DNA from: Herbaspirillum robiniae
GTDB taxonomy: Bacteria; Pseudomonadota; Gammaproteobacteria; Burkholderiales; Burkholderiaceae_D
NCBI RefSeq assembly: GCF_002213415.1
Contig: NZ_NJGU01000001.1
Span: 806,001-870,000, forward strand
Length of the DNA stretch: 64,000 nucleotides
Reading direction: 5' to 3'
Part shown: positions 28,983 through 44,847 of the stretch, one piece after another
Layout: every line of letters begins with the position of its first letter
Position numbering within the stretch: position 1 is the stretch's first letter
Notes under the pieces: model-generated
Databases searched by the model: none
What the model saw: only the letters and a program-made list of their open reading frames with translations
What the model was told of the DNA's origin: nothing
Translations under genes and position numbers: made by a program

Positions 28983-31900
28983 TCAGGCGGTCACCAGGTG
29001 GATACGCGCCACTTCCTGGTTGCTGGCGTTGTAGAACGCATAGTCGGTGGTACCCGGGAAGTACACGTAGTGGTCCGAACCGTTGGCCATGATCTGCAAG
29101 CTTTCGGTGGCGTTCATCTTGACCGTCAACAGGTGCGACGTCGCGCCGCTGGCGATACCCATCTTGATCACATCGTCGGCGGTGATCACGACGTTGGTGG
29201 CGCTGCCGGTGGTCACGTCCAGCGTGGTGATGCCGCTGACCTTGTTGGAGAAATTGCTCAGCGTGAGCGAGCTGCCCAGATCGTCGAAGTGCAGCGTCGT
29301 GGTGCCGGCCAGGCCGTTGATGGAAGCGATGTTGGAGCTGCCGGTGTCCTTGTTGACCATGTCGCTCTGCGCGCCGGCGGTGCTGTGCGAGCCGGCGCTG
29401 ACGTTGATCAGGTTGGTGCCGCTGCCCACCGTCACGCTGTTGCTGCCGCCCTCCAGGACGTTGTAGACGTCGGTCTGGCCGGATACCGCGCCGCCGCCGT
29501 TGAGCGTGTTGGTGGTGGCGGTGCCCTTGGCGGTCAGGATGTTGCCGTTGCCGTCGCCGGTCAGCGTGCTGTTGACGTTGGCGCTGCCGGTCAGGTTGGC
29601 GATGCCGCTGTAGCTGTCGCCGCTGGCGTCGCCGCTGCTGCCGGAGTTGGTCGCCAGGCTGGCCACGATGGCGCTGCCGGTCGAGAACTCATAGCTCACC
29701 GTGTCACTGCCGCCGCCGCCCACGAACTTGTTGGCGGCCGAGTTGCCGACGAAGGTATCGTTGTAGGCGCTGCCGGTAGCGTTCTGGATATTGGCGTAGG
29801 TGTCGCCGGCGGCGTAGTTGCCGGAGCCGTTGTTGTGGAACAGGTCGACCGTGACGCCGCCGTTGGAACGCGCGTAGCTCACGGTATTGCCGGCGCTGAC
29901 CATGGCGCCGCCGTCGAAGAAGTTGGCCTGGTTGCTGGCGAGGAAGGTGTCGTCGAAGTTGCTGCCGACCACGTTCTGGATGTTGACGTACTTGTCGCCG
30001 GCCGCATAGCCGCCGCTGGTGCCGCTGCCGTCGGTCGCGCTCAGGTCCACCGTGACGGCGGCATTGGAGTGCGAATAGTTCACCGTGTTGACGCCCAGGC
30101 CGCCATCGAAACTGTTGCCCTGGTCGTTGGCGTAGAAGGTGTCGTTGTTGTCGCTGCCCAGCAGGTTGTTGATGTTGATCAGCTTGTCGCCGGCGGCGTC
30201 GCCGCCAAAGGTGCCGGTGCCGTCAGTGTAGAACAGGTCGACGGTAACGCCGGAAGAAGATCCCGCGTAGCTGGCCCAGGTCGAGCCCCGGTTGGCAAGC
30301 ACCCCGTTGAGGCTGTCGGCGCCGGCGCCGCCGGTCAGCACCGACTTGACGCCGACAGTCGCAAAGCCGGTCAGGATGTCGTTGTAGGCGCTGCCGACCA
30401 CGTTCTCGATGTTGGCGTAGGTGTCGTTGTCGGCGAAATTGCCGCTGCCAAGGCCGGTGCTCAGGTTCACGGTCACGCCGTTTACGCCGTCGGCGCTGGT
30501 GGACAAGGAGTAGTTCACGGTGTCCGAACCGTTGCCGCCGTCGAGCTTGTTGGCGAAGCTGCTGGCATAGATGATGTCGTCGTTGCCGCTGCCGATGATG
30601 TTGTCGATGTTGACCAGCACGTCGCCCTGGGCGTCGTTGCCGCTGCCGGTACCGGCCTGCAGGTTGATCACCACCGAGCCCGAACCGGCATAGCTGGCAT
30701 AGGTGTAGGCGCGGTTGGCCACGACGGCGGTGATCGTGTCCGCCCCGGCGCCGCCGGTCAGCGTGGACATGACGCCGACGTTGTTGACGCTGTCGTAGGC
30801 GGCGCCGGTCAGGACGTCGGCAAAACGGCTGCCGATCACGTTCTGGATATGGCTGTAAGTATCGCCCTGGGCGTAGTTGTTGACGCCTGCCGCGCCTGTA
30901 GACAGGTTCACCGTGACGCCGGTCGTCCCGTTGCTGCTGGTGGATTGCGCGTAGCTGACCGTGTTCGATCCACCCAGGCCTTCGAACTTGTTGGCGTCGG
31001 AGCTGGCGATGAAGGTGTCGTCCCAGTTGGTGCCGATCACATTCTCGATGCTGACGTAGGTGTCGTTGGTGGCGAAACCGAAACTGCCGGTCTTGCCGGC
31101 CAGATCCACCGTGACGCCGATGCCGTCACTGGCCTTGGCGTAGCTCACGGTATCGCTGCCGGCGCCGCCGTCGAACCTGTTGGCGGCGGCGCTGGCGATG
31201 AAGGTATCGTCGTAATCGCTGCCGGTGGCGTCCTGGATGTTGACGTAGGTGTCGCCGTTGGCGAAGCTGGTCTGCCCGACAACGGCATCGCTGCCGGTAT
31301 TGGCGACCAGATCGACGATCACGCCGGCGCCCGAGTGCGAGTAGCTGACGCGGTTGTGCAGCGAGCCAGTGCCGCCGTCGAACTTGTTGGCCGCCGCACT
31401 GGCGAAGAAGGTGTCGTCGTACTGCGTTCCGGTCACGTTCTCGATGCCGTTGAACTTGTCGCCGGCGGCGAAACCGCCGCTGGTGTTGGTGCCGTCGGTG
31501 TAGAACAGGTCCACCGTCACGCCGTTGCCGTCATTGGCCGCCGAATAGTCCACCGTGTCGTTGCCCAGCCCACCGGTGAAACTGTTGGCCGCCGAGCTCG
31601 CGTAGAACTTGTCGTCGTAGTCGGTGCCGATGACGTTTTCGATGCTGATGTACGTATCGTTGGTGGCAAACCCGTTGCTGCCCTGGCCGGTGGCCAGGTT
31701 GACCGTCACGCCCTGGCCGTCGTTGGCCTTGGCGTAGCTCACCGTGTCCGAACCGGCGCCGCCGTCGAAGGTGTTCGCGTCGGCGCTGGCGATGAAGGTA
31801 TCGTTGTTCGACGTACCGGTCACGTTCTCGATGCTGTCGTACTTGTCGCCGGCGGCGAAGCCGCCCGTGCCGACCTTGGCCACCAGGTCCACCGTCACGC

Positions 31901-34900
31901 CCTGGCCGTCGTTGGAGCGGGCGTAGCTGACCGTGTCCGAACCCGCGCCGCCATAGAAATTGTTGGCCGCCGCGCTGGCGTAGAAGGTGTCGTTGCCGCT
32001 GCCGCCGGTAACGTCCTGGATGTTGACGTAGGTGTCGTTGTTGGCCAGGCTGCCAGCACCACCGCTGCCCACGCCGTTGAACAGGTCCACCGTCTCGTTG
32101 ACCGTCGAGTTGGCGTAGCTGACCATGTTGTGCGACGCCGCCGTGCTGGCGCCGCCGTCGAACCTGTTCTCCGCCGCGCTGGCGACGAAGATATCGTCGG
32201 CCGCGCTGCCGGTGACGTCCTGGATGTTGGTATAGGTGTCGCCGTTGGCGAAGCTCACCTGCCCCGTCACCGCGTCGCCGCCCACCTTGTTGAACAGGTC
32301 GACCATGACGCCGTTGGTGGAGTGCGAGTAGTTGACGCGGTTGTGCAGCGAGCCGGTGCCGCCGTCGAACTTGTTGGCCGCCGCACTGGCGAAGAAGGTG
32401 TCGTCGTACTGCGTTCCGGTCACGTTCTCGATGCCGTTGAACTTGTCGCCGGCAGCGAAACCGCCGCTGGTGTTGGTGCCGTCGGTGTAGAACAGGTCCA
32501 CCGTTACGCCGTTGCCGTCATTGGCCGCCGAATAGTCCACCGTGTCGTTGCCCAGCCCACCGGTGAAACTGTTGGCCGCCGAGCTCGCGTAGAACTTGTC
32601 GTCGTAGTCGGTGCCGATGACGTTTTCGATGCTGATGTACGTGTCGTTGGTGGCAAACCCGTTGCTGCCCTGGCCGGTGGCAAGGTTGACCGTCACGCCC
32701 TGGCCGTCGTTGGCCTTGGCGTAGCTCACCGTGTCCGAACCGGCGCCGCCGTCGAAGGTGTTCACGTCGGCGCTGGCGATGAAGGTATCGTTGTTCGACG
32801 TACCGGTCACGTTCTCGATGCTGTCGTACTTGTCGCCGGCGGCGAAGCCGCCCGTGCCGACCTTGGCCACCAGGTCCACCGTCACGCCCTGGCCGTCGTT
32901 GGAGCGTGCGTAGCTGACTGTGTCCGAACCCGCGCCGCCATAGAAGTTGTTGGCCGCCGCGCTGGCGTAGAAGGTGTCGTTGCCGCTGCCGCCGGTAACG
33001 TCCTGGATGTTGACGTAGGTGTCGTTGTTGGCCAGGCTGCCAGCACCACCGCTGCCCACGCCGTTGAACAGGTCCACCGTCTCGTTGACCGTCGAGTTGG
33101 CGTAGCTGACCATGTTGTGCGACGCGGCCGTGCTGGCGCCGCCGTCGAACCTGTTCTCCGCCGCGCTGGCGACGAAGATGTCATCGGCCGCGCTGCCGGT
33201 GACGTCCTGGATGTTGGTATAGGTGTCGCCATTGGCGAAGCTCACCTGCCCCGTCACCGCGTCGCCGCCCACCTTGTTGAACAAGTCGACCATGACGCCG
33301 TTGGTGGAGTACGAATAGTCCACCCGGTTGTGCAGCGAGCCGGTGCCGCCGTCGAACTTGTTGGCCAGGGCATTGGCGAAGAAGGTATCGTCAAAGGCGC
33401 TGCCGGTGACGTCCTGGATGTTGATCAGCTTGTCGCCGGTCGCATAGCCGCCCGTGGTGCCGGTGCCGTCGGTGTGATTCAGGTCCACCGTCACGGCCTG
33501 GGTCGAATAGGCGTAGCTGACCCTGTTGTGCGAGCCGTTGACGCTCACGCCGCCGTCGAAGGTATTGCTGTCGCTGCTGGCGATGAAGGTGTCATCCAGG
33601 GACGAACCGATCGCATTCTCGATGCCGACGTAAACGTCGTCCTGGGCGAAGCCCCCGGTGCCCACGTTGTTGACCAGGTCGACCGTCACACCCTGCGTGG
33701 AATTGACGTAGCTGACCGTATCCGAACCTTGCAGGCCGGTGAACACGTTCTTGACCGATGTGGCCACGAAGGTGTCGTCATAGGCGGTGCCGATTGCGTT
33801 CTGGATGTTGGCATAAGTGTCGCCGGCGGCGAAACCGTTGCTGCCCACGCCGTTGAACAAGTCAACCGTCACGCCGACGCCGTCCCCCGCCTTGGCGTAG
33901 CTGACCGTATTGTTGCCGGCGCCGCCGTCGAACTTGTTGGCCGCCAGGCTGGCGATGAACAGGTCGTCGAAGTTGGAGCCGGTGACGTTCTGGATGTTGG
34001 TGTAGGTATCGTTGTTGGCGTAGCCGCCGGCGCCCACGCCCAGCACCAGGTCGACCGTCACCGCCGCATTCGATGCGGCATAGCTCACGCGGTTGGAACC
34101 GGCGCCGCCGTCGAAATTGTTCTCGGCCAGGCTGGCGACGAAGGTGTCGTCGCCGGCGCCGCCGGTCAGGTCCTGGATGTTGGTGAGCTTGTCGCCCGCC
34201 GCATAACCGCCGGAGGTGCCGGTGCCGTTGGTGTAGTTCAGGTCTACCGTCACGGCGTCGGTGGAGGCCGCGTAGCTGACGCGGTTGTGCAGCGAGCCGG
34301 TGCCGCCGTCGAAGCTGTTGGCATCGGCGCTGGCGACGAAGGTGTCGTCATAGACGCTGCCGATGATGTTCTGGATATTGGTGAACGAATCGCCGGCCGC
34401 GTAATAGCCGCCGGTGCCGGTGCCGATCGTGTTGGTGAGGTCAACGGTGACCCCGCCCACCGAATAGAAGTAGCTGACCGTATTGGAACCGCCGCCGCCG
34501 TTGAAGTTGTTGACGTCGGCGCTGGCGATGAACATGTCGTCGTAGTTGCTGCCGATCACGTTCTGGATATGCGCCAGCACGTCGCCCTGCGCATAGCCAC
34601 CGCTGCCGCTGCCGTTGTAAAGGTCGACCGTCACCGCCGCATTGGAGAAGGCGTAGCTGACCGTGTCCGAGCCGCCCAGGCCGCCGTTGAAGTTGTTGGC
34701 GTCGATGCTGGCGATGAAGGTGTCGGAGTACGAGCTGCCGACGATGTTCTGGATATGCGTATAGGTGTTGTTCTGCGCGTAGCCGCCGCTGCCGGTCAGG
34801 GTGATCATGTTCACCGTGACCGCGCCGGTGGACGCGCCATAGTTCACCGTATCGGAGCCGCCGCTGCCGCCGTTGAAGTTCTTGCTGTCGACGCCGGCGA

Positions 34901-37004
34901 TGAACACGTCGTCGAAGGCCGAGCCGATGACGTTCTGGATGTGGTTGTAGGTGTCGCCTTCGGCAAATCCGCCGGTGCCGCGGCCGGACACGAAGTTGAC
35001 CGATACGCCGGCGGTGGAGCTGACATAGCTGACCGTATCGTTGCCGCCGCTGCCGCCGTCGAAGCTGTTGGCGTCGAGGCTGCCGACGAAGGTGTCGTCA
35101 TAGGCGGTGCCGATGACGTTCTGGATGCGTACATAGGTGTCGCCCGCCGCCGCGCCGCCGCTGCCGGTGCCGCTCACCAGGTTGACGTTGACGCCCGCCG
35201 AGGAGTTGACGTAGGACACCGTGTTCGACCCGCCGCCGCCGTCGAAACGGTTGGCGTCGGTGCTGGCGATGAAGACGTCGTCATAGGCCGAACCGGTGGC
35301 GTTCTGGATGTGCGTGTAGGTGTCGCCCTGGGCGTAGCCGCCGCTGCCGGTGCCGGTCACCAGGTTGACGGTGACGGCCGAGGTGGAGGACTCGTAGGAG
35401 ACCGTGTCCGAACCGCCGCTGCCGCCGTCGAGCCGGTTCACCGCAGCGTTGGCGACGAAGGTGTCGCTGTAGGCGCTGCCCTTGAGGTTCTGGATGTTGG
35501 TGAGGACGTCGCCCTGCGCGTCGCCACCGGTGCCCAGCCCGGTGACCAGGTTGACGGTCACGCCGGCGCCGGAGTTGGCGTAGCTGGCGGTATTGACGTT
35601 GGTGCCGGTGCTGTTGACGCCGCCGGTGATGATGTCGGCGCCGGCGCCGCCTTCGAAGAAGGTATTGCCAATGCCGCCGATCAGCGTGTCGTTGCCGGTG
35701 CCGCCGTACAGCAGGTCGTTGGCGTTGCTGCCGTAGATGGTGGTGCCGGCGTTGTTGCCCGCGTGCACCTCGTGCGGCGCGCCCTGCGCGGGCAGCACCA
35801 GCACCGCGTCGCCGGTGGCCGGATCCAGGTAGTTGAGGTCGCCGTAGGCGCTCGCGTCCTTGACCGCGACGTGGCGCGAGTCGGTCAGCGTGAGCTGGCC
35901 GTTGGAGGTCGCCACCACCGTGGTGAAGGTCAGGTCGAACGCCTGGTGCACCGGCGAAGAGGTGTCGGCCTCCACCGTGTGATATTGCAGCTGGAGATTG
36001 AAGTCCTTCTGCCCCGAGGCGACGGTGATCGAGTAGCGGCCGCCGCCCAGGTCGGTGCCGTTGACGATGGTCATATTGGACGGCACGCCCGAGACGATCA
36101 CCGACAGCACGTTGCCGGTGCCGGTGATGTTGACGTTGAAGACCTTGGTGAAGTCACCGATGTTGTTGCCGGCCGCATAGATCGTGGTGACGTCGTTGCC
36201 GGCGTTGATCACCTGCGTGCTGAACTGCTGCGGCAGGGACGCGTCGGTGGACGAAGTCGGGATACCGGCGCTGCCGTACAGCGTGCTGCCGATCTGGGTG
36301 ACGGTGGCGAGGTTGACCAGCTTGACCGCCTGGGTCGGCGCGGACGGATCGATCACCACGGTGGGCGGGATCACGCCCGGGCGTTCCGGCGGCGCCTGGA
36401 TTTCCACCGGGCGCTGCGGCGCGTCGCTCTTGCTGGGAGAGCTTTGCGACGCCACCAGCGCGGCATTGGCGGCGGTGGTGGATGCGTCGGCGGTGGGCTG
36501 GGTCGGCACCGACAGGTTCTGGGTGCCGTTGGTGGTCAGCGAGCCGGCGTTGTCGGTAATGATCTTGGACAGCTGGCTGACGCCGTCGCTGCCCAGGCTG
36601 GCCGCGTTGCGCTCGACGTTGACATGCTGCGGGCTCTGCACCGAGGCGTCGGTGGCCACGCGATCGGGCGAGGCGATCGGGTCCGAATTGAGCACGCGCG
36701 ACTGATCGTTCGGCGCCAGCGGGATCTTGCCCACGGTGTCGAGCAGGTTGCCGGTATTGGCGCTGCTGTCGGAGAACTTGACCTTGGACTTGTCGTCCAT
36801 CGCTTCCATGGCGCCGCCGGCCAGCACCACCTTGGTGCCGTCGGCCATGTGCAGCACCATGTCCACGTCCACCACCTGCACGTGCTGGACGGCGCCGCGC
36901 GGCGCGTTGAGCTGGAAGCTGCCGGCCTGGTCGGGCATCACCACCCGTACCGGGCCGGTGATTTTTTCCGCGGAGTTCGCTTGTGATGAGCTTGCGGTTG
37001 CCAT
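28983..37004 (-). CDS. Giant type I-secreted repeat adhesin (SiiE/LapA-like role)
   Basis: A 2673-aa acidic, cysteine-free-looking surface protein with no Sec signal. AGCGAGGAAAC precedes ATG 37004. The N-terminal region (about 1-100, FQLNAPRGAVQHVQVVDVDMVLHMADGTKVVLAG) may be a membrane-retention module. A linker and a non-repetitive domain (about 240-410) follow. About 31 tandem repeats of roughly 55-70 residues then run to about 2480. Each pairs an RTX-like half (NxFDGGxGSDTVSY) with VTVDL...GDTYxNIQNVTGSxYDDTF, rich in Asp/Gly/Asn and probably calcium-binding. The C-terminal about 190 residues lack repeats and should carry the uncleaved type I secretion signal. Five repeats are duplicated as a 987-bp block. 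It is the last gene of the secretion operon and presumably its substrate. Confidence 0.9.
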   Translation of the reverse strand: MATASSSQANSAEKITGPVRVVMPDQAGSFQLNAPRGAVQHVQVVDVDMVLHMADGTKVVLAGGAMEAMDDKSKVKFSDSSANTGNLLDTVGKIPLAPNDQSRVLNSDPIASPDRVATDASVQSPQHVNVERNAASLGSDGVSQLSKIITDNAGSLTTNGTQNLSVPTQPTADASTTAANAALVASQSSPSKSDAPQRPVEIQAPPERPGVIPPTVVIDPSAPTQAVKLVNLATVTQIGSTLYGSAGIPTSSTDASLPQQFSTQVINAGNDVTTIYAAGNNIGDFTKVFNVNITGTGNVLSVIVSGVPSNMTIVNGTDLGGGRYSITVASGQKDFNLQLQYHTVEADTSSPVHQAFDLTFTTVVATSNGQLTLTDSRHVAVKDASAYGDLNYLDPATGDAVLVLPAQGAPHEVHAGNNAGTTIYGSNANDLLYGGTGNDTLIGGIGNTFFEGGAGADIITGGVNSTGTNVNTASYANSGAGVTVNLVTGLGTGGDAQGDVLTNIQNLKGSAYSDTFVANAAVNRLDGGSGGSDTVSYESSTSAVTVNLVTGTGSGGYAQGDTYTHIQNATGSAYDDVFIASTDANRFDGGGGSNTVSYVNSSAGVNVNLVSGTGSGGAAAGDTYVRIQNVIGTAYDDTFVGSLDANSFDGGSGGNDTVSYVSSTAGVSVNFVSGRGTGGFAEGDTYNHIQNVIGSAFDDVFIAGVDSKNFNGGSGGSDTVNYGASTGAVTVNMITLTGSGGYAQNNTYTHIQNIVGSSYSDTFIASIDANNFNGGLGGSDTVSYAFSNAAVTVDLYNGSGSGGYAQGDVLAHIQNVIGSNYDDMFIASADVNNFNGGGGSNTVSYFYSVGGVTVDLTNTIGTGTGGYYAAGDSFTNIQNIIGSVYDDTFVASADANSFDGGTGSLHNRVSYAASTDAVTVDLNYTNGTGTSGGYAAGDKLTNIQDLTGGAGDDTFVASLAENNFDGGAGSNRVSYAASNAAVTVDLVLGVGAGGYANNDTYTNIQNVTGSNFDDLFIASLAANKFDGGAGNNTVSYAKAGDGVGVTVDLFNGVGSNGFAAGDTYANIQNAIGTAYDDTFVATSVKNVFTGLQGSDTVSYVNSTQGVTVDLVNNVGTGGFAQDDVYVGIENAIGSSLDDTFIASSDSNTFDGGVSVNGSHNRVSYAYSTQAVTVDLNHTDGTGTTGGYATGDKLINIQDVTGSAFDDTFFANALANKFDGGTGSLHNRVDYSYSTNGVMVDLFNKVGGDAVTGQVSFANGDTYTNIQDVTGSAADDIFVASAAENRFDGGASTAASHNMVSYANSTVNETVDLFNGVGSGGAGSLANNDTYVNIQDVTGGSGNDTFYASAAANNFYGGAGSDTVSYARSNDGQGVTVDLVAKVGTGGFAAGDKYDSIENVTGTSNNDTFIASADVNTFDGGAGSDTVSYAKANDGQGVTVNLATGQGSNGFATNDTYISIENVIGTDYDDKFYASSAANSFTGGLGNDTVDYSAANDGNGVTVDLFYTDGTNTSGGFAAGDKFNGIENVTGTQYDDTFFASAAANKFDGGTGSLHNRVNYSHSTNGVMVDLFNKVGGDAVTGQVSFANGDTYTNIQDVTGSAADDIFVASAAENRFDGGASTAASHNMVSYANSTVNETVDLFNGVGSGGAGSLANNDTYVNIQDVTGGSGNDTFYASAAANNFYGGAGSDTVSYARSNDGQGVTVDLVAKVGTGGFAAGDKYDSIENVTGTSNNDTFIASADANTFDGGAGSDTVSYAKANDGQGVTVNLATGQGSNGFATNDTYISIENVIGTDYDDKFYASSAANSFTGGLGNDTVDYSAANDGNGVTVDLFYTDGTNTSGGFAAGDKFNGIENVTGTQYDDTFFASAAANKFDGGTGSLHNRVSYSHSGAGVIVDLVANTGSDAVVGQTSFANGDTYVNIQDATGSDYDDTFIASAAANRFDGGAGSDTVSYAKASDGIGVTVDLAGKTGSFGFATNDTYVSIENVIGTNWDDTFIASSDANKFEGLGGSNTVSYAQSTSSNGTTGVTVNLSTGAAGVNNYAQGDTYSHIQNVIGSRFADVLTGAAYDSVNNVGVMSTLTGGAGADTITAVVANRAYTYASYAGSGSVVINLQAGTGSGNDAQGDVLVNIDNIIGSGNDDIIYASSFANKLDGGNGSDTVNYSLSTSADGVNGVTVNLSTGLGSGNFADNDTYANIENVVGSAYNDILTGFATVGVKSVLTGGAGADSLNGVLANRGSTWASYAGSSSGVTVDLFYTDGTGTFGGDAAGDKLININNLLGSDNNDTFYANDQGNSFDGGLGVNTVNYSHSNAAVTVDLSATDGSGTSGGYAAGDKYVNIQNVVGSNFDDTFLASNQANFFDGGAMVSAGNTVSYARSNGGVTVDLFHNNGSGNYAAGDTYANIQNATGSAYNDTFVGNSAANKFVGGGGSDTVSYEFSTGSAIVASLATNSGSSGDASGDSYSGIANLTGSANVNSTLTGDGNGNILTAKGTATTNTLNGGGAVSGQTDVYNVLEGGSNSVTVGSGTNLINVSAGSHSTAGAQSDMVNKDTGSSNIASINGLAGTTTLHFDDLGSSLTLSNFSNKVSGITTLDVTTGSATNVVITADDVIKMGIASGATSHLLTVKMNATESLQIMANGSDHYVYFPGTTDYAFYNASNQEVARIHLVTA
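31345..33318 (-). repeat. Near-identical 987-bp tandem duplication inside the adhesin gene
   Basis: Two adjacent copies with a period of 987 bp (329 codons), about 31345-32331 and 32332-33318, each encode five adhesin repeats. They differ at only a few bases; one change makes Ala versus Val in ASADxNTFDGG. Other repeats in the gene are far more diverged, so this block was duplicated recently and in frame. Exact boundaries are uncertain by tens of bases. Confidence 0.88.
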
Positions 37005-37051
37005 GTTTCCTCGCTGTCGAAGATCAGTTCGAAGTTATCGTTTCATCAAAC

Positions 37052-37074
37052 CCGCGTCGCCCCCGGCGACGCGG
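37052..37074 (-). promoter_or_regulatory. Intercistronic hairpin between exporter and adhesin genes
   Basis: Perfect 10-bp GC-rich arms, CCGCGTCGCC / GGCGACGCGG, with a 3-base loop lie 12 bases after the ABC exporter stop and 48 bases before the adhesin start. It is followed on the minus strand by GTTTGATG rather than a full U-run. It is therefore more likely an RNA-stability or partial-termination element than a full stop. Confidence 0.6.
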
Positions 37075-37085
37075 ATGCTGCAGCC

Positions 37086-38789
37086 TTACTGCAAAATCTG
37101 GGCCCGTGGGCCGTCGGCCACGATACGGCCGCCGTCGATGACGACGATGCGGTCCATATGGCGCAACAGCGCCGGGCTGTGGGTGGCCACCACCAGCGTG
37201 CGCCCGTTGGCGAAAGCCACCATGCGCTCGATGATGCGGGCCTCGGTCTGCTGGTCGATGCCGGTGGTCGGCTCGTCCAGCAGCAGGATGCGCGGCACCG
37301 ACGCCACCACGCGCGCCAGCGCCACCATCTGGCGCTGCCCGCCGGAGAGGTTGCCGGGCGCCTTGAGCGCCTGGTCCAGCCGCAGCTCGCCGCGCGCGAT
37401 CAGGTCGTCCAGCGCCGACACGCCCAGTGCGGCCTCGTACACCTGTCCCGGCACGCGCTCGCCGATGAAGATGTTGGCCGCCACCGTGCCGTCGAAGATG
37501 AAGGGCTCCTGCGGCTTGAAGCCGATGTTGCGCATGCGCGCCTCGGCCGCATAGGCAGTGACGGCCACGCCGTCCACCAGCACGTGGCCCTCTTCCGGCT
37601 TGTGCAGGCCGGCCAGCGCGCGCAGCAGGGTCGACTTGCCGGAGCCGGAACGGCCGACGATGCCGACCTTCTCGCCGGGCTGGATAGTCAGCGAGACGTG
37701 CTTCAAGGTCGGGGTTTCCTTCTTGTCCAGGTGCAGCATCAGGTTGCCGACCTGGATCAGGCCGCGCATTTCCTGGCGCACCACGTCGGCGCCGCCGGTC
37801 TGCTCTTCCTCGCCGAACAGCTGGTCGAACTCGGCGCGCGCGCGGCGGAACATCTCGATGCGGCCCAGGAACGCCGCCAGCGAGGACAGCACCGTGGTGG
37901 CGCGGCTGATCAGCAGCGAACCCGCGATCAGGGCGCCGACGGTGAGCGCGTTGTCTTCCACCAGGTAGACGCCGACCACCAGCGTGGCCACCGAGATGGC
38001 GGTATAGCCGACCGAGGACACCGCGTAGCCGGCGTTCATCCAGAAGCGGCTCTTGGCCATGGCCACGGCGTTGGAGGCGGCGTCGGCAAGGAAGGAGCGC
38101 ATCAGGCGCTCCTGCAGCAGCGTGGTCTTGAGCGTCTCCATGCCGAACACGATGCTGGCCAGCTTGTCGATCTTGCCGGTGCCGGCCTTCATGGCGGCGT
38201 TGGCGTAGTCGTTGCCGGGCACCTTGAACAGCAGCTGGGCGCCCACCAGCAGCGCCCCACCCACCAGCAGCACCCAGACCAGGTGGCCGCCGACAAAGCC
38301 CAGCACCACCAGATAGAGCAGCAGGAACGGCAGGTCCACCAGCAGCAGCATGTAGTTCGACGAGAGCAGGTCGCGCGCGGACGACAGGTCGCGATAACGC
38401 GCCAGCACCACACCCACCGGCGCGTTGACCTTGGCGCTGAGCAGCCGGCGCGCGGAGACTTCGTCGAACTCCACGTCCAGCTTGCCGGCCAGCTGCTCGG
38501 TGTAGTACACGCGGATCAGGCGCAGCACCAGCTCCAGCGCGATGAACAGCAGCATGCCCAGGGTCAGCGCCCACAAGGTCTCGGGAATGTGGTTGCCGAT
38601 CACCTTGTCGTAGACCAGCCGCGAATACAGCGGCATGAGCAGGCCCAGCAGGTTGACCAGGATGCCGGCCACGATGATTTCGACGAAGCGCGCGCCGTAG
38701 GCCCGCAGGAGCGACAGGTAAGTCGGGTCCTGGCGCAGGCCATGCAAGGGCTGCGGCTGGTCGATATGTACCTGTTCGCTTTCGTTCAT
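37086..38789 (-). CDS. Type I secretion ABC exporter, SiiF/LapB-like
   Basis: A 567-aa fused permease-ATPase. The transmembrane domain (about 30-310) has six hydrophobic segments. The nucleotide-binding domain has Walker A GRSGSGKST (379-387), signature LSGGQ (481-485), Walker B ILLLDEP (501-507) and the switch His in VVATHSPA. No N-terminal C39 or C39-like domain precedes the membrane part; it has only about 30 residues there. Gene order places it between the MotA-like protein (38-bp gap) and the adhesin. It should form the inner-membrane motor of the exporter with the HlyD-like and TolC-like proteins. Confidence 0.93.
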   Translation of the reverse strand: MNESEQVHIDQPQPLHGLRQDPTYLSLLRAYGARFVEIIVAGILVNLLGLLMPLYSRLVYDKVIGNHIPETLWALTLGMLLFIALELVLRLIRVYYTEQLAGKLDVEFDEVSARRLLSAKVNAPVGVVLARYRDLSSARDLLSSNYMLLLVDLPFLLLYLVVLGFVGGHLVWVLLVGGALLVGAQLLFKVPGNDYANAAMKAGTGKIDKLASIVFGMETLKTTLLQERLMRSFLADAASNAVAMAKSRFWMNAGYAVSSVGYTAISVATLVVGVYLVEDNALTVGALIAGSLLISRATTVLSSLAAFLGRIEMFRRARAEFDQLFGEEEQTGGADVVRQEMRGLIQVGNLMLHLDKKETPTLKHVSLTIQPGEKVGIVGRSGSGKSTLLRALAGLHKPEEGHVLVDGVAVTAYAAEARMRNIGFKPQEPFIFDGTVAANIFIGERVPGQVYEAALGVSALDDLIARGELRLDQALKAPGNLSGGQRQMVALARVVASVPRILLLDEPTTGIDQQTEARIIERMVAFANGRTLVVATHSPALLRHMDRIVVIDGGRIVADGPRAQILQ

Positions 38790-38827
38790 CTGCCGTTGCT
38801 CCGTACTCGCCCCGCGTCAGGCAGGCA

Positions 38828-40495
38828 TCAGGATTGCGCGCCGCGGTTGGCGGACATTTCGCGGATGGCCTCGCGCAGCTCCAGGCGCAGGTCCTTGACC
38901 ATGGTCTGGCGGCCGTTGCGCATTTCTTCGATCACGGTCTGCCAGTTGATGTTCTGGCGCATCAGCGCCTCGGTGATGGAGGTCAGCGATTGCGGGATGG
39001 CGCCCAGGTTCTTCACGCGGTCGTTCTGGGTCGCCATGTGCTTGGCCAGGTCGATCTGCAGCTGGCGCGCCGACAGCGCGTCGCGCGCCATGTTGCTGGA
39101 GTTCTCGCCCATGGTGTTGCCAAGTTCGTTCAGGCGCGCCGCCACGGTGGACTGGATTTCGCCCTGGTACTGGATGGCGCCCATCTCGTCGGCCAGGCGG
39201 ATCGAGATCTGGTTCAGCAGCGTCGGCAGCTGCGCGATGTTCTGCGCACTCTTCTCGTGCATGTTGGAAATTTCGGTCTGCTGCGCCTGCAGCGAGGTCA
39301 GCGACGACGACAGCGCCACCTGGCCGGCCTGGATGTTGGAGACGATCTGCGGCAGCACCTCGAAGGTGCGGTTGGCGATGTCGCCGTTGACCGAGAGGCG
39401 CTCTTCCAGCGACGACAGGCTGTCGGACAGGTCGCGCGCCGAGGTGATCTTGGTGTTGATGATCTGGCCGACGTTGCGGATTTCTTCCAGGGTCTGCTGC
39501 GCGGTCTCATGCATGCGCGGGCCGAAGGCCACCAGCTGGCGCAGGTTGCGCGACTCTTCCATGCTGTCATTGAACAGCTGGACGATGTTGTTGAGGCGCT
39601 CGTTCAGGCCTTCGAGCTTGATGCCGGCCTGCAGCGAGGCTTCCGAGCTGTTGCGCGCGGCCATGATGGATTCGCGCTGCAGCACCATCAAGTCCTGCAG
39701 GAACTCGGCCAGGAAGGTTTCCGACACGCCCTGGCGTTGCGTGGCCGCAGGGCCGGACATGTCGTGGATCACGTGCTGCACCATGTCGCTGATGCACTCG
39801 CGGGCGCGCGCCACCAGCTTCTTGCCGGCGCCGCGCAGCGGGGTCAGCGTCAGGCCCAGGCACAGCGAGCCGATCAGGCCGAACATCGAGGCCGAGAACG
39901 CGGTGCCCATCGATGCCAGCGGTTTTTGCAAGTCGGCCACCAGGCGCATGAAGGAGGCGTCCATGTCGCCGCCGCCGGCCGCCTTGCCGAAGCCGTCGAT
40001 CAGGGCGGCGGTGCCGACCAGGGTTTCCAGCAGGCCGATGAAGGTGCCCAGGAGACCCAGCGCGATCATGAAACCGGTCAGGAACTGCGGGAACTCGGTC
40101 TTGGCTTCCAGGTGCGCCTTCAGGTCGTGCAGCGAGCCTTCGATGGTCTCCTGCTCGATACGCGAAGTCAGGCGGCCCTTGGTGCTGGCCACGCTGACCA
40201 GCACCTGGCCGATCTCGGTGCCGGCGAACTCGGGCGCCTTGACCAGGTCCTGCATCGATTCGCCGGCCTTGGTGCGCTCATAGAACTGCATCAGCTTGTC
40301 ATGCTCCCAGTTCACGCGCCAGATGTTGTAGCCGATCAGGGCGATGCCGAACACCGCCACCGAGATGATGAACAGGTTCAGGAACGGGTTGATGTGAATT
40401 GCGTGCAGGACGAAGTCCCGGAACAGGATCGCTCCCACCAGCAGCAACAGCGTCGGGATGGCAGCGAGTGCATAGAATTGGCGTAGGTTTTTCAT
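38828..40495 (-). CDS. MotA/TolQ/ExbB-like proton-channel protein with long coiled-coil tail (SiiB/ZorA-like)
   Basis: A 555-aa inner-membrane protein. Helices lie at about 10-28 and 38-58. The paired MotA/ExbB-type helices are at 138-160 (FLTGFMIALGLLGTFIGLLETL) and 197-218 (MGTAFSASMFGLIGSLCLG). From about 230 to the end comes a long, helical, Gln/Glu/Ser-rich cytoplasmic tail predicted to be coiled coil. The architecture matches ZorA of Zorya defence and, in genomic context, SiiB of the Salmonella SPI-4 secretion system, where the SiiAB channel supports adhesin activity. Zorya effector genes are absent, and every neighbour is a type I secretion gene. The partner is the OmpA/MotB-like protein of the same operon. 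Confidence 0.88.
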   Translation of the reverse strand: MKNLRQFYALAAIPTLLLLVGAILFRDFVLHAIHINPFLNLFIISVAVFGIALIGYNIWRVNWEHDKLMQFYERTKAGESMQDLVKAPEFAGTEIGQVLVSVASTKGRLTSRIEQETIEGSLHDLKAHLEAKTEFPQFLTGFMIALGLLGTFIGLLETLVGTAALIDGFGKAAGGGDMDASFMRLVADLQKPLASMGTAFSASMFGLIGSLCLGLTLTPLRGAGKKLVARARECISDMVQHVIHDMSGPAATQRQGVSETFLAEFLQDLMVLQRESIMAARNSSEASLQAGIKLEGLNERLNNIVQLFNDSMEESRNLRQLVAFGPRMHETAQQTLEEIRNVGQIINTKITSARDLSDSLSSLEERLSVNGDIANRTFEVLPQIVSNIQAGQVALSSSLTSLQAQQTEISNMHEKSAQNIAQLPTLLNQISIRLADEMGAIQYQGEIQSTVAARLNELGNTMGENSSNMARDALSARQLQIDLAKHMATQNDRVKNLGAIPQSLTSITEALMRQNINWQTVIEEMRNGRQTMVKDLRLELREAIREMSANRGAQS

Positions 40496-40548
40496 ACTGG
40501 CGAAGTTCCGGGCAGATGGATGCTAGAGATACGGAAAATGAAAACGGG

Positions 40549-40573
40549 CGCCGCGCGCAGGATCGGCGCGGCG
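40549..40573 (-). promoter_or_regulatory. Intercistronic hairpin between HlyD-like and MotA-like genes
   Basis: Arms CGCCGCGC / GCGCGGCG with a 9-base loop sit in the 103-bp gap, followed on the minus strand by CCCGTTTTCATTTT, a broken U-run. It may reduce read-through or protect the upstream mRNA. Confidence 0.5.
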
Positions 40574-40598
40574 TTGAACACGGTATGCGGGAAGCGGC

Positions 40599-41957
40599 TC
40601 ATCGCGGCTCCCTCATGGCGCTTTGCGAGAAGCGCGACAGCGGCGACATCAGGTATTGCCAAACGGTGCGCCGGCCCACGATCATGTCGGCGGTGGCGGT
40701 CATGCCGGGCATCAGCGCCAGGTTGCGCTGCAGTTCGCCGGCACCGCGGGCGACCTCGATCTTGACGCGGTAGTAACGCTCGCCCCGCTCTTCCGGGACG
40801 GTGTCGGCCGACACTTCGGTCACCACGCCGTCCATGGCGCCATACACGCCGTAGTCATAAGCGGACACCTTCACCCGCGCGCGCGCGCCGGTCACCAGCT
40901 GGGCGCGGTCGGTCGGCGAAATCTTCGCTTCGATCACCAGCTTGTCGTCGCTGGGCGTCATTTCGATGATGGGATCACCCGGCTTGACCACGCCGCCGAC
41001 GGTGTTGATCAGCACGCGGTTGACCACGCCGTCCATCGGCGCCTTCACTTCCGAGCGCGAGACGCGGTCGTTGCGCGACTTGATTTCTTCCTGCAGGCGC
41101 GCCAGCTCGGTCTCGGCGGCGGTCAGTTCGGTGCGGGCGTCGGAACGGAAGCGCGAGGCGGCCTCGCCCATCTTGGCCTGCGATTCGGCGATCGCCGCAT
41201 TCAGGCGCGGGATCATGGCGTTGGTGGCGGCCAGCTTGCTCTGCGCGTCCTGCACGCGGGCGGCCGACTGGATGTCTTCCAGCTGCGACGCGGCGTTGCG
41301 CTCGAGCATGTTGTGGATCAGCTTGTACTGGCGCTGCGCCAGGTCGAGTTCGCTGGCCAGGCTCTTCTGGCGGCTGACCGCCTCGCCCAGCTCGGCCTGG
41401 CGCTGGGCCGACTGCTCGCGCAGCACCGACAGCTCCTGCGACACCTTGGCGCCGCGCGCGGCGAAGGCGGCCTGTTCGCTCTGCACGGCCGGATCGTCGC
41501 GCGACAGGTCGGCGGGCATCTGCAGGCTGGGGCTGCCGGAAGCCTCGGCGCTCAGGCGCGCGATCTTGGCGCGCAGGCCGAGGATCTTGACCCGGCCTTC
41601 GCCCAGGTCGGCGTTGGCGCGCACGTCGGAAATCGAAATCAGCGTCTGGCCCTTCTTCACGGCCGCGCCTTCGCGCACCAGGATGGCGGAGACGATGCCG
41701 CCCTCAAGGTGCTGGATGATCTGGTTGTGCTCGGAGGAGACGATGCGCCCGGTGCCGCGCACCACCATGTCGATCGGCGCGAACACCGACCACACCAGCA
41801 GCAGCGCCAGCAGCGCGGCGCAGGCCAGCACCGCCAGGCGCGGACGCGGCATGGTGCGCAGCTCGCCCAGGCGGCGGTCCAGCCGCGGCGCGATGCGGCG
41901 CATGAAGCCCTTGCCGCGGGAAGCGATCCCGTGGGCGGCGTTGGGCTTGAGCGACAT
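40599..41957 (-). CDS. HlyD-family periplasmic adaptor of type I secretion (SiiD/LapC-like)
   Basis: A 452-aa membrane-fusion protein. A single N-terminal helix (about 40-62, LAVLACAALLALLLVWSVFAP) is followed by the first lipoyl half (IIQHLEGGIVSAILVREGAAVKKGQTL). A long coiled-coil hairpin (about 125-310) leads to the second lipoyl half (VKAPMDGVVNRVLINTVGGVVKPGDPI) and a C-terminal beta-barrel. The gene overlaps the stop of the MotB-like gene: GTG 41963 overlaps its TGA, and ATG 41957 is 2 bases beyond. Either could be used; I chose ATG. It bridges the ABC exporter to the TolC-like channel. Confidence 0.92.
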   Translation of the reverse strand: MSLKPNAAHGIASRGKGFMRRIAPRLDRRLGELRTMPRPRLAVLACAALLALLLVWSVFAPIDMVVRGTGRIVSSEHNQIIQHLEGGIVSAILVREGAAVKKGQTLISISDVRANADLGEGRVKILGLRAKIARLSAEASGSPSLQMPADLSRDDPAVQSEQAAFAARGAKVSQELSVLREQSAQRQAELGEAVSRQKSLASELDLAQRQYKLIHNMLERNAASQLEDIQSAARVQDAQSKLAATNAMIPRLNAAIAESQAKMGEAASRFRSDARTELTAAETELARLQEEIKSRNDRVSRSEVKAPMDGVVNRVLINTVGGVVKPGDPIIEMTPSDDKLVIEAKISPTDRAQLVTGARARVKVSAYDYGVYGAMDGVVTEVSADTVPEERGERYYRVKIEVARGAGELQRNLALMPGMTATADMIVGRRTVWQYLMSPLSRFSQSAMREPR

Positions 41958-41959
41958 GG

Positions 41960-42736
41960 TCACTTGCCGCCCGCCAGGTATTGGACGATCACGCGCGAGG
42001 CGTTCTCGGTGGAGTTTTCGGCGGTCGCCATGCGGCTGAGCACGCGCTCCTTGTCGACGCCGGCTTCAATCAGGTGATTGCGCACGGCCACGGTGCGGTA
42101 GTAGGCGCGGCGGCGGCTGTCGCTGTATCCGCCGGTGCTGATCACGCCGGTGACCACGATCCTGCCCTGGCCGGCCTTGGCGCGCCGGACCCAGTCGCCG
42201 ATGCCCTTGTCCAGCGCCTTGGTGCCGTCGTCGGTGAGCTGGGTGGAATCGTTGTCGAAGTTGAGCACGATCGCCTTCTCGTTGGCGTCGATGGCCAGGC
42301 CCGGGGCGACGTCGTTCTTGGACGGCTCGGTCTTGACCTGGATGGCGTTGGGGCTGGACGGCGGCGCGGCGCTGCGCATGCTGCCGGTGTCGGACTGCAA
42401 CGGCGCGGCGGCCAGCTTGGCCTTGAGCGCGACCACTTCGCGCTTGAGCTGCTCGACCTCTTCAGAACGCTCGCGCTCGGCCTTGCTGTCCGAGACGTTC
42501 ACGTCGGCGCCGTCGGGCGTCTTGATCAGGTCGTTCTGCTTGCTCTTGACCTCGCCCTGCACCGCCTGCGTCTGGCTTTGCGAGACCAGCTTGCTGACCT
42601 TCATCTGGGCCAGCTTCTGCGAGTAGTAGAACAGCGTGACGACAAACACCACGACCACGAAGATCATGACCAGCACGACGTTGGACAGCGCGTCCACGAA
42701 CCCTGGCCAGAAATTCTGCTCCTTGCCGCCCTCCAT
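41960..42736 (-). CDS. MotB/OmpA-like peptidoglycan-binding stator protein (SiiA/ZorB-like)
   Basis: 258 aa. A short cytoplasmic N-terminus leads into one membrane helix, FWPGFVDALSNVVLVMIFVVVVFVV (about 9-33). Asp15 in GFVDAL occupies the place of the proton-binding Asp of MotB, ZorB and SiiA. A coiled-coil linker (about 60-110) follows. A C-terminal OmpA-like domain (about 165-255, with GYSDSRRRAYYRTVAVRNHLIEAGV) should bind peptidoglycan. The gene lies 15 bases after the TolC-like gene and overlaps hlyD. With the MotA-like protein it should form a proton-driven channel complex serving the exporter. Confidence 0.88.
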   Translation of the reverse strand: MEGGKEQNFWPGFVDALSNVVLVMIFVVVVFVVTLFYYSQKLAQMKVSKLVSQSQTQAVQGEVKSKQNDLIKTPDGADVNVSDSKAERERSEEVEQLKREVVALKAKLAAAPLQSDTGSMRSAAPPSSPNAIQVKTEPSKNDVAPGLAIDANEKAIVLNFDNDSTQLTDDGTKALDKGIGDWVRRAKAGQGRIVVTGVISTGGYSDSRRRAYYRTVAVRNHLIEAGVDKERVLSRMATAENSTENASRVIVQYLAGGK

Positions 42737-42751
42737 GACTCCCCCGTAATG

Positions 42752-44395
42752 CTATTTCACTGCCTGCGGCGGCGGGGCTTCCTGCGAGGAAGCCTTGCCG
42801 GTGTTGCGCAGGATCTGGTAACTGATATCGGCCTGCTGGAACAGCAGGGCTGCAAAATCCATCCGCGCCTGGTAGGCCTGCTGATAGGCGTCCAGCACGT
42901 CCAGCAGCTGCTTGCTGCCGGTCGAGAGCTGCTCCAGGAAGACGTCGGCCACGTTGGCGTTGGTCAGGTAGGCCTGGCGCGAGATGTCCATGCGCTTCCT
43001 GACCGCGCCCAGCGTGCGGTAGTTGATCTCGACCTGCTCGCGCAGCTTGCGCTCCAGGTCCAGCGCGGTATTGCTTTTCTCGACGTACTTGGCGCCGACC
43101 TGCTTCTGGTAGTACATGTCGGAACCGCCGTTGAGCAGGTTCATGGTCATGACCAGCATCAGGCGACGGTCGGTCTGCAGCTGCAGGCTGTTGTCGGATG
43201 TGTCGATGGCGCCGCCGGCGCCGCGCGTCTTCTGCTGCGTCCATTCGAGGGCGAAGGTCGGCGAGAACTTGGCGCGCGCGGCCTTCAGCTCTTCGTTGGC
43301 GGCATCCAGGTCGCGCCGCGCGGCGCGCACGCCGGGGTTGGTCTCGTAGATGTCCTTGAGCGCGAGCTTGGAGCTGTCGGGGACCGGCGGCATCATGTGG
43401 TCGGGCACCTCGAGCTGCTCGATCTTGCGGCCGGTGATCTGGTTCAGCGACACCATGGCCGACTCCAGCGCGCCCTCGGCCTCGGCCACGGCGGACTGCG
43501 CGGTCAGCGAACGGCCGCGCACGCGTTCGAAGTCGATGCGGCTGGCGCCGCCGCCCTCCAGGCGCTTGCGCATGTACTCCAGCAGGTCGCCCATGCGTTG
43601 CGAATAGCTGCGCGCGAACGACAGCGAGGCATAGGCGCGCATCACGTCGTAGTAGGCCTTGATGGCGTTGTAGTAGAGCGTCTCGCGCGCGTCGTCGCGG
43701 CGCAGCTCGGCGGCCCGGGCCAGCGAACGGTTCTTGCTGTAGTCGAAATAGGAGCCGGGGGCGAATATCGGCTGGCGGCCGATCACGGTCACGTCCCAGC
43801 GCTTGTGGTCGGAGGCGCGCTGCACCAGGCCGGTGTTGGGATCGATCACCGAAGACGGCGACGAATATTCCTGGCCCTTTTGCGCGCGCACATCCAGGGT
43901 CGGCCCCATCTGCCCGGCCGACACCTTGGTGGCATAGTTGGCCTGGTCCGCCTGGGCCGAGGTGGCCGCATAGCTGTAGCTGTTGTTCAGCGCCAGGTCG
44001 AGCACCTTGGGCAGCGTCAGGTCAGGCACAATGTCGCCTTCGGTGACGATGGCCACGGTCGGCAAGGCGATGGTGTTGCCGGTGAAGGAAGGATCGGACT
44101 GGCGCAGCAGCACCAGGATCTCGTCGTCCGGGCTGGCGCCGGATCTGATATCCGACGGCAACAGCGACGGCAGCCTGGCCTCGGCCGCGGACGGGCCGGA
44201 CGGATCCGATCCGAGGCGTATCTGCGGCGGCATATCCAGTTTGTCAGGCGCGGCCGCCGGCACAGGCGCTTGCGCCAGGGAGCGCGCGGGCGGCTCAGAC
44301 AGTGGAACGAGGTCCTGCGCAGCATATGACAATTGATGCGCGGTCAGCCCTAGTGAAACACCGAGTAAAAAACGCTTGCTTTTAAGAACTATCAT
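42752..44395 (-). CDS. TolC-family outer-membrane channel of type I secretion (SiiC/LapE-like)
   Basis: 547 aa. The start at ATG 44395 places the signal peptide (MIVLKSKRFLLGVSLGLTAHQLSYA) at the N-terminus; ATG 44437 would add 14 polar residues. After a low-complexity Pro/Ala segment, two outer-membrane efflux protein repeats follow (about 120-320 and 330-530). The characteristic segments are LDLALNNSYSYAATSAQ and VLDAYQQAYQARMDFAALLFQQADISYQILRNTGK. It is the first gene of the six-gene secretion operon, downstream of a 450-bp AT-rich leader region. Confidence 0.92.
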   Translation of the reverse strand: MIVLKSKRFLLGVSLGLTAHQLSYAAQDLVPLSEPPARSLAQAPVPAAAPDKLDMPPQIRLGSDPSGPSAAEARLPSLLPSDIRSGASPDDEILVLLRQSDPSFTGNTIALPTVAIVTEGDIVPDLTLPKVLDLALNNSYSYAATSAQADQANYATKVSAGQMGPTLDVRAQKGQEYSSPSSVIDPNTGLVQRASDHKRWDVTVIGRQPIFAPGSYFDYSKNRSLARAAELRRDDARETLYYNAIKAYYDVMRAYASLSFARSYSQRMGDLLEYMRKRLEGGGASRIDFERVRGRSLTAQSAVAEAEGALESAMVSLNQITGRKIEQLEVPDHMMPPVPDSSKLALKDIYETNPGVRAARRDLDAANEELKAARAKFSPTFALEWTQQKTRGAGGAIDTSDNSLQLQTDRRLMLVMTMNLLNGGSDMYYQKQVGAKYVEKSNTALDLERKLREQVEINYRTLGAVRKRMDISRQAYLTNANVADVFLEQLSTGSKQLLDVLDAYQQAYQARMDFAALLFQQADISYQILRNTGKASSQEAPPPQAVK

Positions 44396-44847
44396 CAATC
44401 CGATAGACCGGCATCCCAGCCGGTCCCCCTGCCCCATCCAATAAGAAAAACCCGCGTCTCATACCGCTGGTCCCGGATAACTACCCCATAGGCCAAGGTG
44501 TTGTTCTTTTTGTAAGGCCGAAGAAATGCTGATTATATGTCAACAAATCTTTATATTTTGGCAAAAGCGATTTTAACATCCGCTCATTGCGGGAAAATTA
44601 CAGAAAAACCTGAAAAAATCTTTTAATTTCAATTGACTTGATTCGTTTCAACGTCGGCAATTATCGTCAGCTTGATGTCACGAAGCTATCAGGGAATTCC
44701 GAAAAATGACAAAACCTAACAAAACACACAAAAAATGCGGTTGAAAAACCACACATCATTCCCTATATCCTGCCCATCCGCGATTGGCTTTTTCTATTCG
44801 CCCTTTTTAGCTTTTCTCACCACCGTCTCATCCATAAGGACATAAAC
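44396..44847. other. AT-rich divergent regulatory region between secretion operon and htpG
   Basis: This 450-bp gene-free region is much more AT-rich than its surroundings. Toward htpG it holds a sigma-32 promoter. Toward the secretion operon, minus-strand TATAAT in TTGACATATAATC (near 44533-44545) could be a -10 element, although no good -35 is at the right distance. A CTACCCCATAGG element at 44481-44492 is partly symmetric. No riboswitch of the c-di-GMP (GEMM) type was recognised in the leader. Confidence 0.6.
44741..44768 (+). promoter_or_regulatory. Sigma-32 (RpoH) promoter of htpG
   Basis: TTGAAA (44741-44746), 14 bases, then CCCTATAT (44761-44768). Spacing and -10 are the same type as the ibpA promoter in this window, which fits RpoH control of the chaperone. 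Confidence 0.8.

Follow-up and report, generated by a model that had tools for sequence, protein, structure and literature searches.

Why does an operon that appears built to export one giant adhesin also encode a pair of proteins resembling MotA and MotB? The question is raised by a 64,000-nucleotide stretch of the Herbaspirillum robiniae genome (contig NZ_NJGU01000001.1, positions 806,001 to 870,000), referred to here as the window, whose minus strand carries at 28983-44437 a six-gene Herbaspirillum cassette in the order TolC, OmpA/MotB-like, HlyD, MotA/ExbB-like, ABC exporter and RTX adhesin. An earlier reading made without database searches (the sequence-only reading) had likened these genes to Salmonella pathogenicity island 4 (SPI-4, or Sii) and proposed that they act jointly. 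From the comparisons reported here, we consider it likely that the cassette is a single co-inherited adhesin machine, a SPI-4-like type I system controlled by a proton motor, which probably holds or releases its adhesin.

The six-gene cassette

All six minus-strand open reading frames (ORFs) are present and open in the ORF calls. Together with family scans and predicted folds, they bear out the component set of the sequence-only reading (TolC, MotB/OmpA, HlyD, MotA/ExbB, ABC and a 2673-aa adhesin), as follows.

42752-44437, minus strand: TolC-type outer-membrane channel, first gene (OEP PF02321, E 5e-38; TIGR01844, 141 bits, below cut-off)
41960-42736, minus strand: B subunit, MotB/OmpA-like, 258 aa (WPGFVDA motif and one transmembrane helix, linker, OmpA-like periplasmic domain)
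40599-41963, minus strand: HlyD-type periplasmic adaptor (HlyD_3, 2e-17; TIGR01843, 370 bits, over cut-off)
38828-40495, minus strand: A subunit, MotA/TolQ/ExbB-like, 555 aa
37086-38789, minus strand: ABC exporter, 567 aa (ABC_tran, 2e-32; TIGR03375, 453 bits, below the cut-off of 693)
28983-37004, minus strand: RTX adhesin, 2673 aa (RTX repeat HemolysinCabind, 7e-39, 10 stretches)

With genes for TolC, HlyD and an ABC exporter beside one for a large RTX substrate, the cassette qualifies as a type I secretion system (T1SS). The likely TolC start is 44395, an internal ATG ahead of the signal peptide, in agreement with the end assigned by the sequence-only reading; TolC matches at E <= 1e-20 occur in 11 of the 17 genomes searched. 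The ABC exporter is without an N-terminal C39-like domain, because the TIGR03375 match starts at profile position 140. Taken gene by gene from the ORF coordinates, the intergenic gaps are 15, -4, 103, 38 and 81 bp, a spacing that fits a single operon, and promoter and terminator scans returned counts no higher than in shuffles.

The motor-like pair

The A subunit matches MotA_ExbB at E 0.0066 with 16.6 bits, under the curated Pfam cut-off of 22.9, and the B subunit matches OmpA at E 1e-4 with 22.9 bits, under a cut-off of 27.2; the best NCBIfam match of the B subunit, NF006543 at 50 bits, lies far under its cut-off of 305. Since both members score under the Pfam cut-offs, routine annotation could overlook them. 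Despite these scores, signatures conserved in relatives, MotA/ExbB- and OmpA/MotB-type predicted folds and the presence of orthologues confirm that the pair is real. Orthologues of the MotA-like protein in ten named Herbaspirillum records are 78-97% identical to it. An ExbB/TolQ-type predicted fold and a GLLGT / PL..MG.AF signature place the A subunit in the MotA/TolQ/ExbB superfamily, with a Pfam score below cut-off. The B subunit is modelled with a periplasmic fold of the OmpA/MotB peptidoglycan-binding class, to which SiiA also belongs; both Foldseek and VIA-align rank SiiA (6QVP) first in the PDB, by a narrow margin over other OmpA/MotB folds. The following parts of the pair enter the argument below.

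38831-39721, minus strand: A-subunit C-terminal tail (residues 259-555), modelled as long helices (predicted local distance difference test, pLDDT, mostly 50-75), presumed cytoplasmic
42692-42694, minus strand: Asp15 codon of the B subunit, presumed proton-carrying residue
42110-42112, minus strand: Arg209 codon of the B subunit
42095-42097, minus strand: Arg214 codon of the B subunit

Among 36 aligned adhesin-linked B subunits, the membrane Asp15 and Arg209 are invariant (36/36 each), and Arg214 is present in 34.

Inheritance as a unit

The order TolC-B-HlyD-A-ABC-adhesin is kept in all nine close orthologous loci that were fetched (L017-L025), four of whose adhesins are cut by the end of the contig or stretch, while that of L025 is split over three frames. 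More distant loci of the family (L026, L027 and L029) keep TolC-OmpA-HlyD-MotA; their ABC gene lies elsewhere or did not appear. Across a sample of 145 genomes from the family, the MotA-like protein is matched in 13, or in 12 after removal of a Zorya III protein in genome G060 (E 7e-5).

The congener G026 exhibits an empty site, at which orthologues of the two genes that flank the cassette are adjacent.

44848-46758, plus strand: HtpG (HSP90), outside the unit
27390-28910, plus strand: GntR/aminotransferase regulator, outside the unit

Window positions 28892 and 44834, which are 15.9 kb apart, correspond to G026 positions only 163 bp apart. That genome contains no match to the MotA-like protein, none to TolC at E <= 1e-20, and nothing of the adhesin's N-terminal module (N-module) beyond a lone 133-aa frame at another locus. 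In the other five congeners that were searched (G142, G129, G116, G059 and G101), the regulator gene lies just past the adhesin end. The clean empty site indicates that the whole cassette was gained or lost at once; the six genes behave as one co-inherited unit.

Distribution and phylogeny of the pair

A scan of 84,980 species genomes yielded at least 407 relatives, of which the best 80 were kept as named loci. A locus was scored as T1SS-linked if an HlyD match of at least 150 bits lay within 6 kb on the same strand. By this rule 33 of the 80 are T1SS-linked and 43 stand alone; two Achromobacter loci carry a giant protein, and two have the N-module only. TolC, B and HlyD genes are all found in 32 of the 33 linked loci, an ABC gene in 25, and an N-module within reach in 23; of the remaining ten, seven have an RTX frame truncated where the fetched DNA begins, and the other three lie on short contigs that show no adhesin. 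The core order TolC-B-HlyD-A recurs in linked loci, with the ABC gene and adhesin placed variously around it; B and HlyD only appear exchanged in L055 and L082, where the HlyD frame as called runs too long. Cassette carriers include the endophytes Herbaspirillum frisingense GSF30 (L035) and Methylobacillus arboreus (L051). Among the host groups are Herbaspirillum, Roseateles, Ideonella, Paucibacter, Aquabacterium, Methylobacillus, Hydrogenophaga, one Pseudomonas, and metagenome-assembled genomes of Caulobacterales and Rhodospirillales. The 43 stand-alone loci, HlyD-less by definition, show no TolC, exporter-ABC (at least 300 bits) or N-module match nearby. The A subunit is at most 407 aa long in 41 of these 43, versus 436-645 aa in the 33 linked loci. 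Among plasmids, the only relatives are two Sinorhizobium matches over 38% of the protein, the annotated one being a stand-alone pair and the other lying in a record without annotation; the viral contigs searched yielded none.

In a maximum-likelihood tree of 56 MotA-like proteins, a single branch (100/100) splits 33 adhesin-linked proteins (29 T1SS-linked, two from Achromobacter and two with an N-module) from 23 stand-alone ones, which implies one change of state between the two arrangements; the tree is unrooted, long branches meet in it, and L030 and L031 sit on a long branch. Its rows were chosen from 125 loci with a match, among which some genomes were fetched twice. Profile A3 derives from the linked group, so its scores are not used as evidence for two groups; that role falls to the tree. 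The adhesin-linked side comprises Burkholderiales, Methylobacillus, a Pseudomonas, Caulobacterales and Rhodospirillales. The proposal that the pair belongs with the exporter and adhesin is thus upheld by the nine of nine close loci, the empty site in G026, the one-branch split and the 33 T1SS-linked loci among the best 80.

The two Achromobacter loci (A. dolens and A. pulmonis; L061 and L063) encode a giant protein, at least 2974 and 2985 aa long, directly before a MotB-like/MotA-like pair that falls on the adhesin-linked side of the tree. The L061 protein carries Ig-like Big_13 repeats (1.4e-45), and no recognised exporter genes lie within 10 kb at either locus.

The adhesin and its N-terminal module

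Two regions of the adhesin are distinguished.

29655-35759, minus strand: RTX repeat region, about residues 416-2450, period ~63 aa
36705-37004, minus strand: N-module, residues 1-100, common to other adhesins beside motor pairs and distantly BapA-prefix-like

The protein contains no cysteine, has 259 acidic and 76 basic residues, and exhibits 16 strict GGxGxDxh motifs with a period of ~63 aa. RTX repeats alone are found in it by Pfam, with no bacterial Ig repeats.

Loci selected for their MotA-like gene contain 37 ORFs with the N-module, so that all 37 lie near such a gene by construction; none of these ORFs belongs to the 43 stand-alone loci. Across 18 other modules aligned, identity to that of the window ranges between 15 and 65%. 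The resemblance to the BapA prefix domain is weak (13 of 19 members at E <= 1, best E 3.5e-5); the curated BapA-prefix model matches 10 of the 145 family genomes, none over cut-off, nine being motor genomes and one (G096) not. In the family sample, the N-module and the motor (Zorya match removed) each occur in 12 of 145 genomes and coincide in 11, the exceptions being G026, with the N-module only, and G064, with the motor only on a short contig. Fisher's test of the association gives p 9e-14, a value that still counts the Zorya genome and ignores relatedness, the 12 genomes representing three genera.

In a sample of 398 genomes from the phylum, the N-module is matched in 12. Four matches are strong: the window's own, G850, G761 and G570. 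The motor adjoins the N-module adhesin in the first three, of which G850 adds no new case because it is the same DNA as the named locus L051; the G570 contig ends early and shows no motor. The other eight matches are weak (E above 1e-5), six lying beside TolC, ABC and HlyD genes and two alone, and the DNA fetched around all eight shows no motor. The idea that the N-module marks the motor alone was rejected: the module is BapA-prefix-like, and it occurs in loci whose fetched DNA shows no motor and also away from exporter genes (L204 and L205).

Several N-module loci have features of their own. L204 (8.3 kb) and L205 carry N-module frames and may be orphan substrates, because no recognised exporter or motor genes lie close by; further N-module frames are found at G101:C11:96764 and G059:C6:55379. 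In G761 (L230-L231), the N-module adhesin has an open frame of 5557 aa; HlyD, ABC, B and A genes come next, and then one for a PilZ-domain protein (5.6e-5), hinting at control by cyclic di-GMP (c-di-GMP).

Comparison with SPI-4 and other known systems

In the reviews of SPI-4 (PMC12607715, PMC6272769), the same six components appear: an exporter, a giant adhesin and a MotA/MotB-like pair. As in SPI-4, the MotA-like and MotB-like genes of the window share an operon with the exporter and adhesin. The window's B subunit has SiiA as its nearest fold in the PDB, and both have one transmembrane helix near the N-terminus. SiiA requires Arg162 and Arg167 for peptidoglycan binding (PMC12607715); Arg209 and Arg214 of the window's B subunit are likewise spaced by 5, a likeness of spacing, not a residue-by-residue alignment. 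The gene order differs, being TolC-B-HlyD-A-ABC-adhesin in the window versus B, A, TolC, HlyD, adhesin, ABC for siiA-F in the reviews. The window adhesin has RTX repeats where that of SPI-4 has Ig repeats, and the window's ABC exporter is without the C39-like N-terminal domain carried by SiiF (PMC12607715). By profile, SiiA is reached at E 0.24-0.27, short of significance, and none of the searches brought up SiiB from Salmonella, as a sequence or as a structure. Judged by composition and predicted fold, the system appears to work like SPI-4; it is not filed as a member because the Ig adhesin and the C39-like domain are missing and homology to SiiA and SiiB is unproven. The SPI-4-like label of the sequence-only reading is therefore kept for the component set and the fold link between the B subunit and SiiA, and does not extend to sequence orthology with SiiA or SiiB. 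Its contrast between RTX and Ig adhesins applies to the window and is less sharp in the wider group, since an adhesin-linked-side pair in Achromobacter lies beside a giant Big_13 protein that is nearer SiiE in repeat type than the window's adhesin.

BapA- and LapA-type adhesins are likewise giant proteins with a dedicated TolC-ABC-HlyD exporter, and the N-module is distantly like the BapA prefix; unlike the window, the BapA-like loci of the phylum sample show no motor pair beside them in the fetched DNA. Control of LapA relies on LapD and LapG (PMC6272769). The OI-28 T1SS/RTX locus of enterohaemorrhagic Escherichia coli (EHEC) also joins a T1SS to two large RTX adhesins, which are required for adherence (PMC12758282). 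No MotA/MotB pair is among the five genes named for it, and the text of that paper nowhere uses the terms MotA, ExbB or OmpA. Stand-alone MotA/PRK09039 pairs, mostly alphaproteobacterial among the named records, have a B subunit that shares the WPG[FYW]VD motif with that of the window, and the NF006543 match of the window's B subunit is a further point in common; they differ in having no T1SS or adhesin beside them, a shorter A subunit and a position on the opposite side of the tree. Literature searches, confined to listings, abstracts and passages of open-licence papers without bioRxiv and so no proof of absence, turned up no motor-linked adhesin system outside Salmonella; within that scope, the cassette is a widespread variant for which no earlier description came up.

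Proposed mechanism and alternatives

In the scheme that we propose, the giant RTX adhesin is exported by a type I machinery made up of TolC, HlyD and the ABC protein. T1SS substrates leave the cell C-terminus first, and the adhesin would do the same, folding on Ca2+. SiiE, too, exits C-terminus first (PMC6272769). Export in this direction would leave the N-module last inside, as a natural handle for retention. The MotA-like and MotB-like proteins would form a proton-driven inner-membrane complex, with A5B2 stoichiometry and proton use inferred from better known kin. Its B-subunit OmpA-like domain may grip peptidoglycan through the two arginines, while the long A-subunit tail would extend toward the exporter. 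By using or sensing the proton motive force, the complex could hold the late-exiting N-module in an energised cell and otherwise release the adhesin. This model follows what has been proposed for SiiAB and SiiE: SiiAB is reported to be a proton channel whose deletion spares SiiE secretion and lowers invasion of polarised cells, and carbonyl cyanide m-chlorophenylhydrazone (CCCP) reduces SiiE retention at the surface (PMC12607715, PMC6272769). How SiiAB uses the proton motive force for adhesin retention or release is described as unclear in a 2025 review (PMC12607715). By analogy, control of adhesin retention would be the likeliest role of the pair, because the parts are the same, the B fold is SiiA-like, the channel and arginine residues are conserved and no LapG was found.

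The motor might instead power export, pulling or ratcheting the long adhesin through TolC or opening TolC, in which case its loss would abolish secretion, not retention. Such a role would suit the interleaving of the B and A genes with exporter genes, seen here and in the linked loci that keep the core order, and the force that TolQR and ExbBD motors exert at the outer membrane (PMC12204202). In Salmonella, however, deletion of siiA or siiB leaves SiiE secretion into the medium unaffected (PMC12607715), and the six weak N-module loci of the phylum sample with TolC, ABC and HlyD genes have no MotA match in the fetched DNA; a role in powering export is unlikely. Greater doubt attaches to control of the LapA type, in which the adhesin would plug TolC and be cut by LapG under LapD control, with the motor secondary. 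The window shares the exporter class and a large RTX adhesin with LapA systems, but a search of the entire genome gave no Peptidase_C93 (LapG) match; of 14 control genomes, one was positive. Residues 1-420 of the adhesin contain no [TPA]AA[GVS] site, which we take to be the LapG-like cleavage pattern. With neither protease nor site found, LapG control of the adhesin was rejected, and a LapA-type scheme seems very improbable.

The pair could also act as a motor of general use in the envelope, comparable to the stand-alone MotA/PRK09039 pair of Alphaproteobacteria, and be located in this operon only incidentally. Stand-alone relatives are common (43 of the best 80 named loci), and Sinorhizobium meliloti has a pair without a T1SS. 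An even sample from the class weighs against our interpretation in its simple form: the MotA profile matches 101 of 369 genomes at E <= 1e-3, many weakly, and by the HlyD rule none of the 29 strongest matches, the window's own excluded, lies beside T1SS genes (E 8e-47 to 1.3e-7, several on short contigs), so that most relatives of the pair stand alone. Close to one of these loci, L193, lies a frame with a weak likeness to TolC (65 bits). Those class-sample matches placed in the tree group with the stand-alone pairs, and a circumstance that the sequence-only reading had named as fatal to its proposal, a pair usually encoded away from type I secretion genes, is found at the superfamily level only. 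The operon pairs occupy their own side of the 100/100 branch, are missing from G026 as are the other cassette genes, and are found again beside exporter and adhesin genes in several gene orders and groups, which makes an incidental location quite improbable. An anti-phage motor akin to ZorAB, with which the window shares a MotA/MotB-like pair and a long A tail, is hardly credible. Against ZorA3 the A subunit scores weakly, its tail being part of the match (E 4e-7, 27 bits), and ZorB1 is matched at E 5e-4, but the genuine Zorya III cluster of G060 (L028:9271-13236), which served as positive control, reaches 900 bits with ZorA3 and 365 with ZorB3 and has ZorF3 adjoining. No Zor model is matched at E <= 1e-3 in the other four operon proteins and three flanking proteins scanned, so no Zor effector was seen among them; with neither a family-level match nor an effector, Zorya identity of the pair was rejected.

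More tentatively, the retention model may apply to a broad class of motor-controlled type I adhesins of which SPI-4 is one branch, a single clade of dedicated, long-tailed proton motors serving both RTX and Ig-like adhesins in Beta-, Gamma- and Alphaproteobacteria and recognising a common N-module. If so, the proton motive force would directly set for how long giant adhesins remain attached. A conserved cassette that plant-associated and environmental bacteria such as Herbaspirillum and Methylobacillus either have whole or lack makes the SiiAB question testable outside Salmonella, and it offers a defined adhesin module and invariant motor residues for that purpose. Retention would also be a likely function to add to those of MotA/TolQ/ExbB-type motors, in a branch that falls under Pfam cut-offs at the window locus.

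Additional observations

Within the adhesin, a recent-looking duplication at 31779-33308 (minus strand) comprises 181 identical residues, 329 apart (residues 1233-1413 and 1562-1742). A 2662-aa open frame runs antisense to the adhesin at 28998-36986 (plus strand); long antisense frames occur in relatives too, and this one is read as a shadow of the GC-rich repeats and no gene.

Some stand-alone MotA/PRK09039-like pairs, from Sinorhizobium pSymB, Devosia and kin, have an opposing ABC transporter gene nearby (L032, L096, L099, L101, L104, L105 and L107).

A second type of cluster is present in Herbaspirillum (L030:2888-15498, L031, L203 and, in G129, L202). It encodes TolC, an EAL-domain protein (PF00563, 3.5e-65 in L030), a longer ABC protein, HlyD, a MotA-like protein, giant proteins, a MotB-like protein with WPGYVD, and a separate 130-aa protein that is little beyond an N-module. 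The giant proteins of G129 are one of ~3127 aa, as calculated from coordinates, and a 7248-aa open frame with an N-module. This cluster suggests a link to c-di-GMP.

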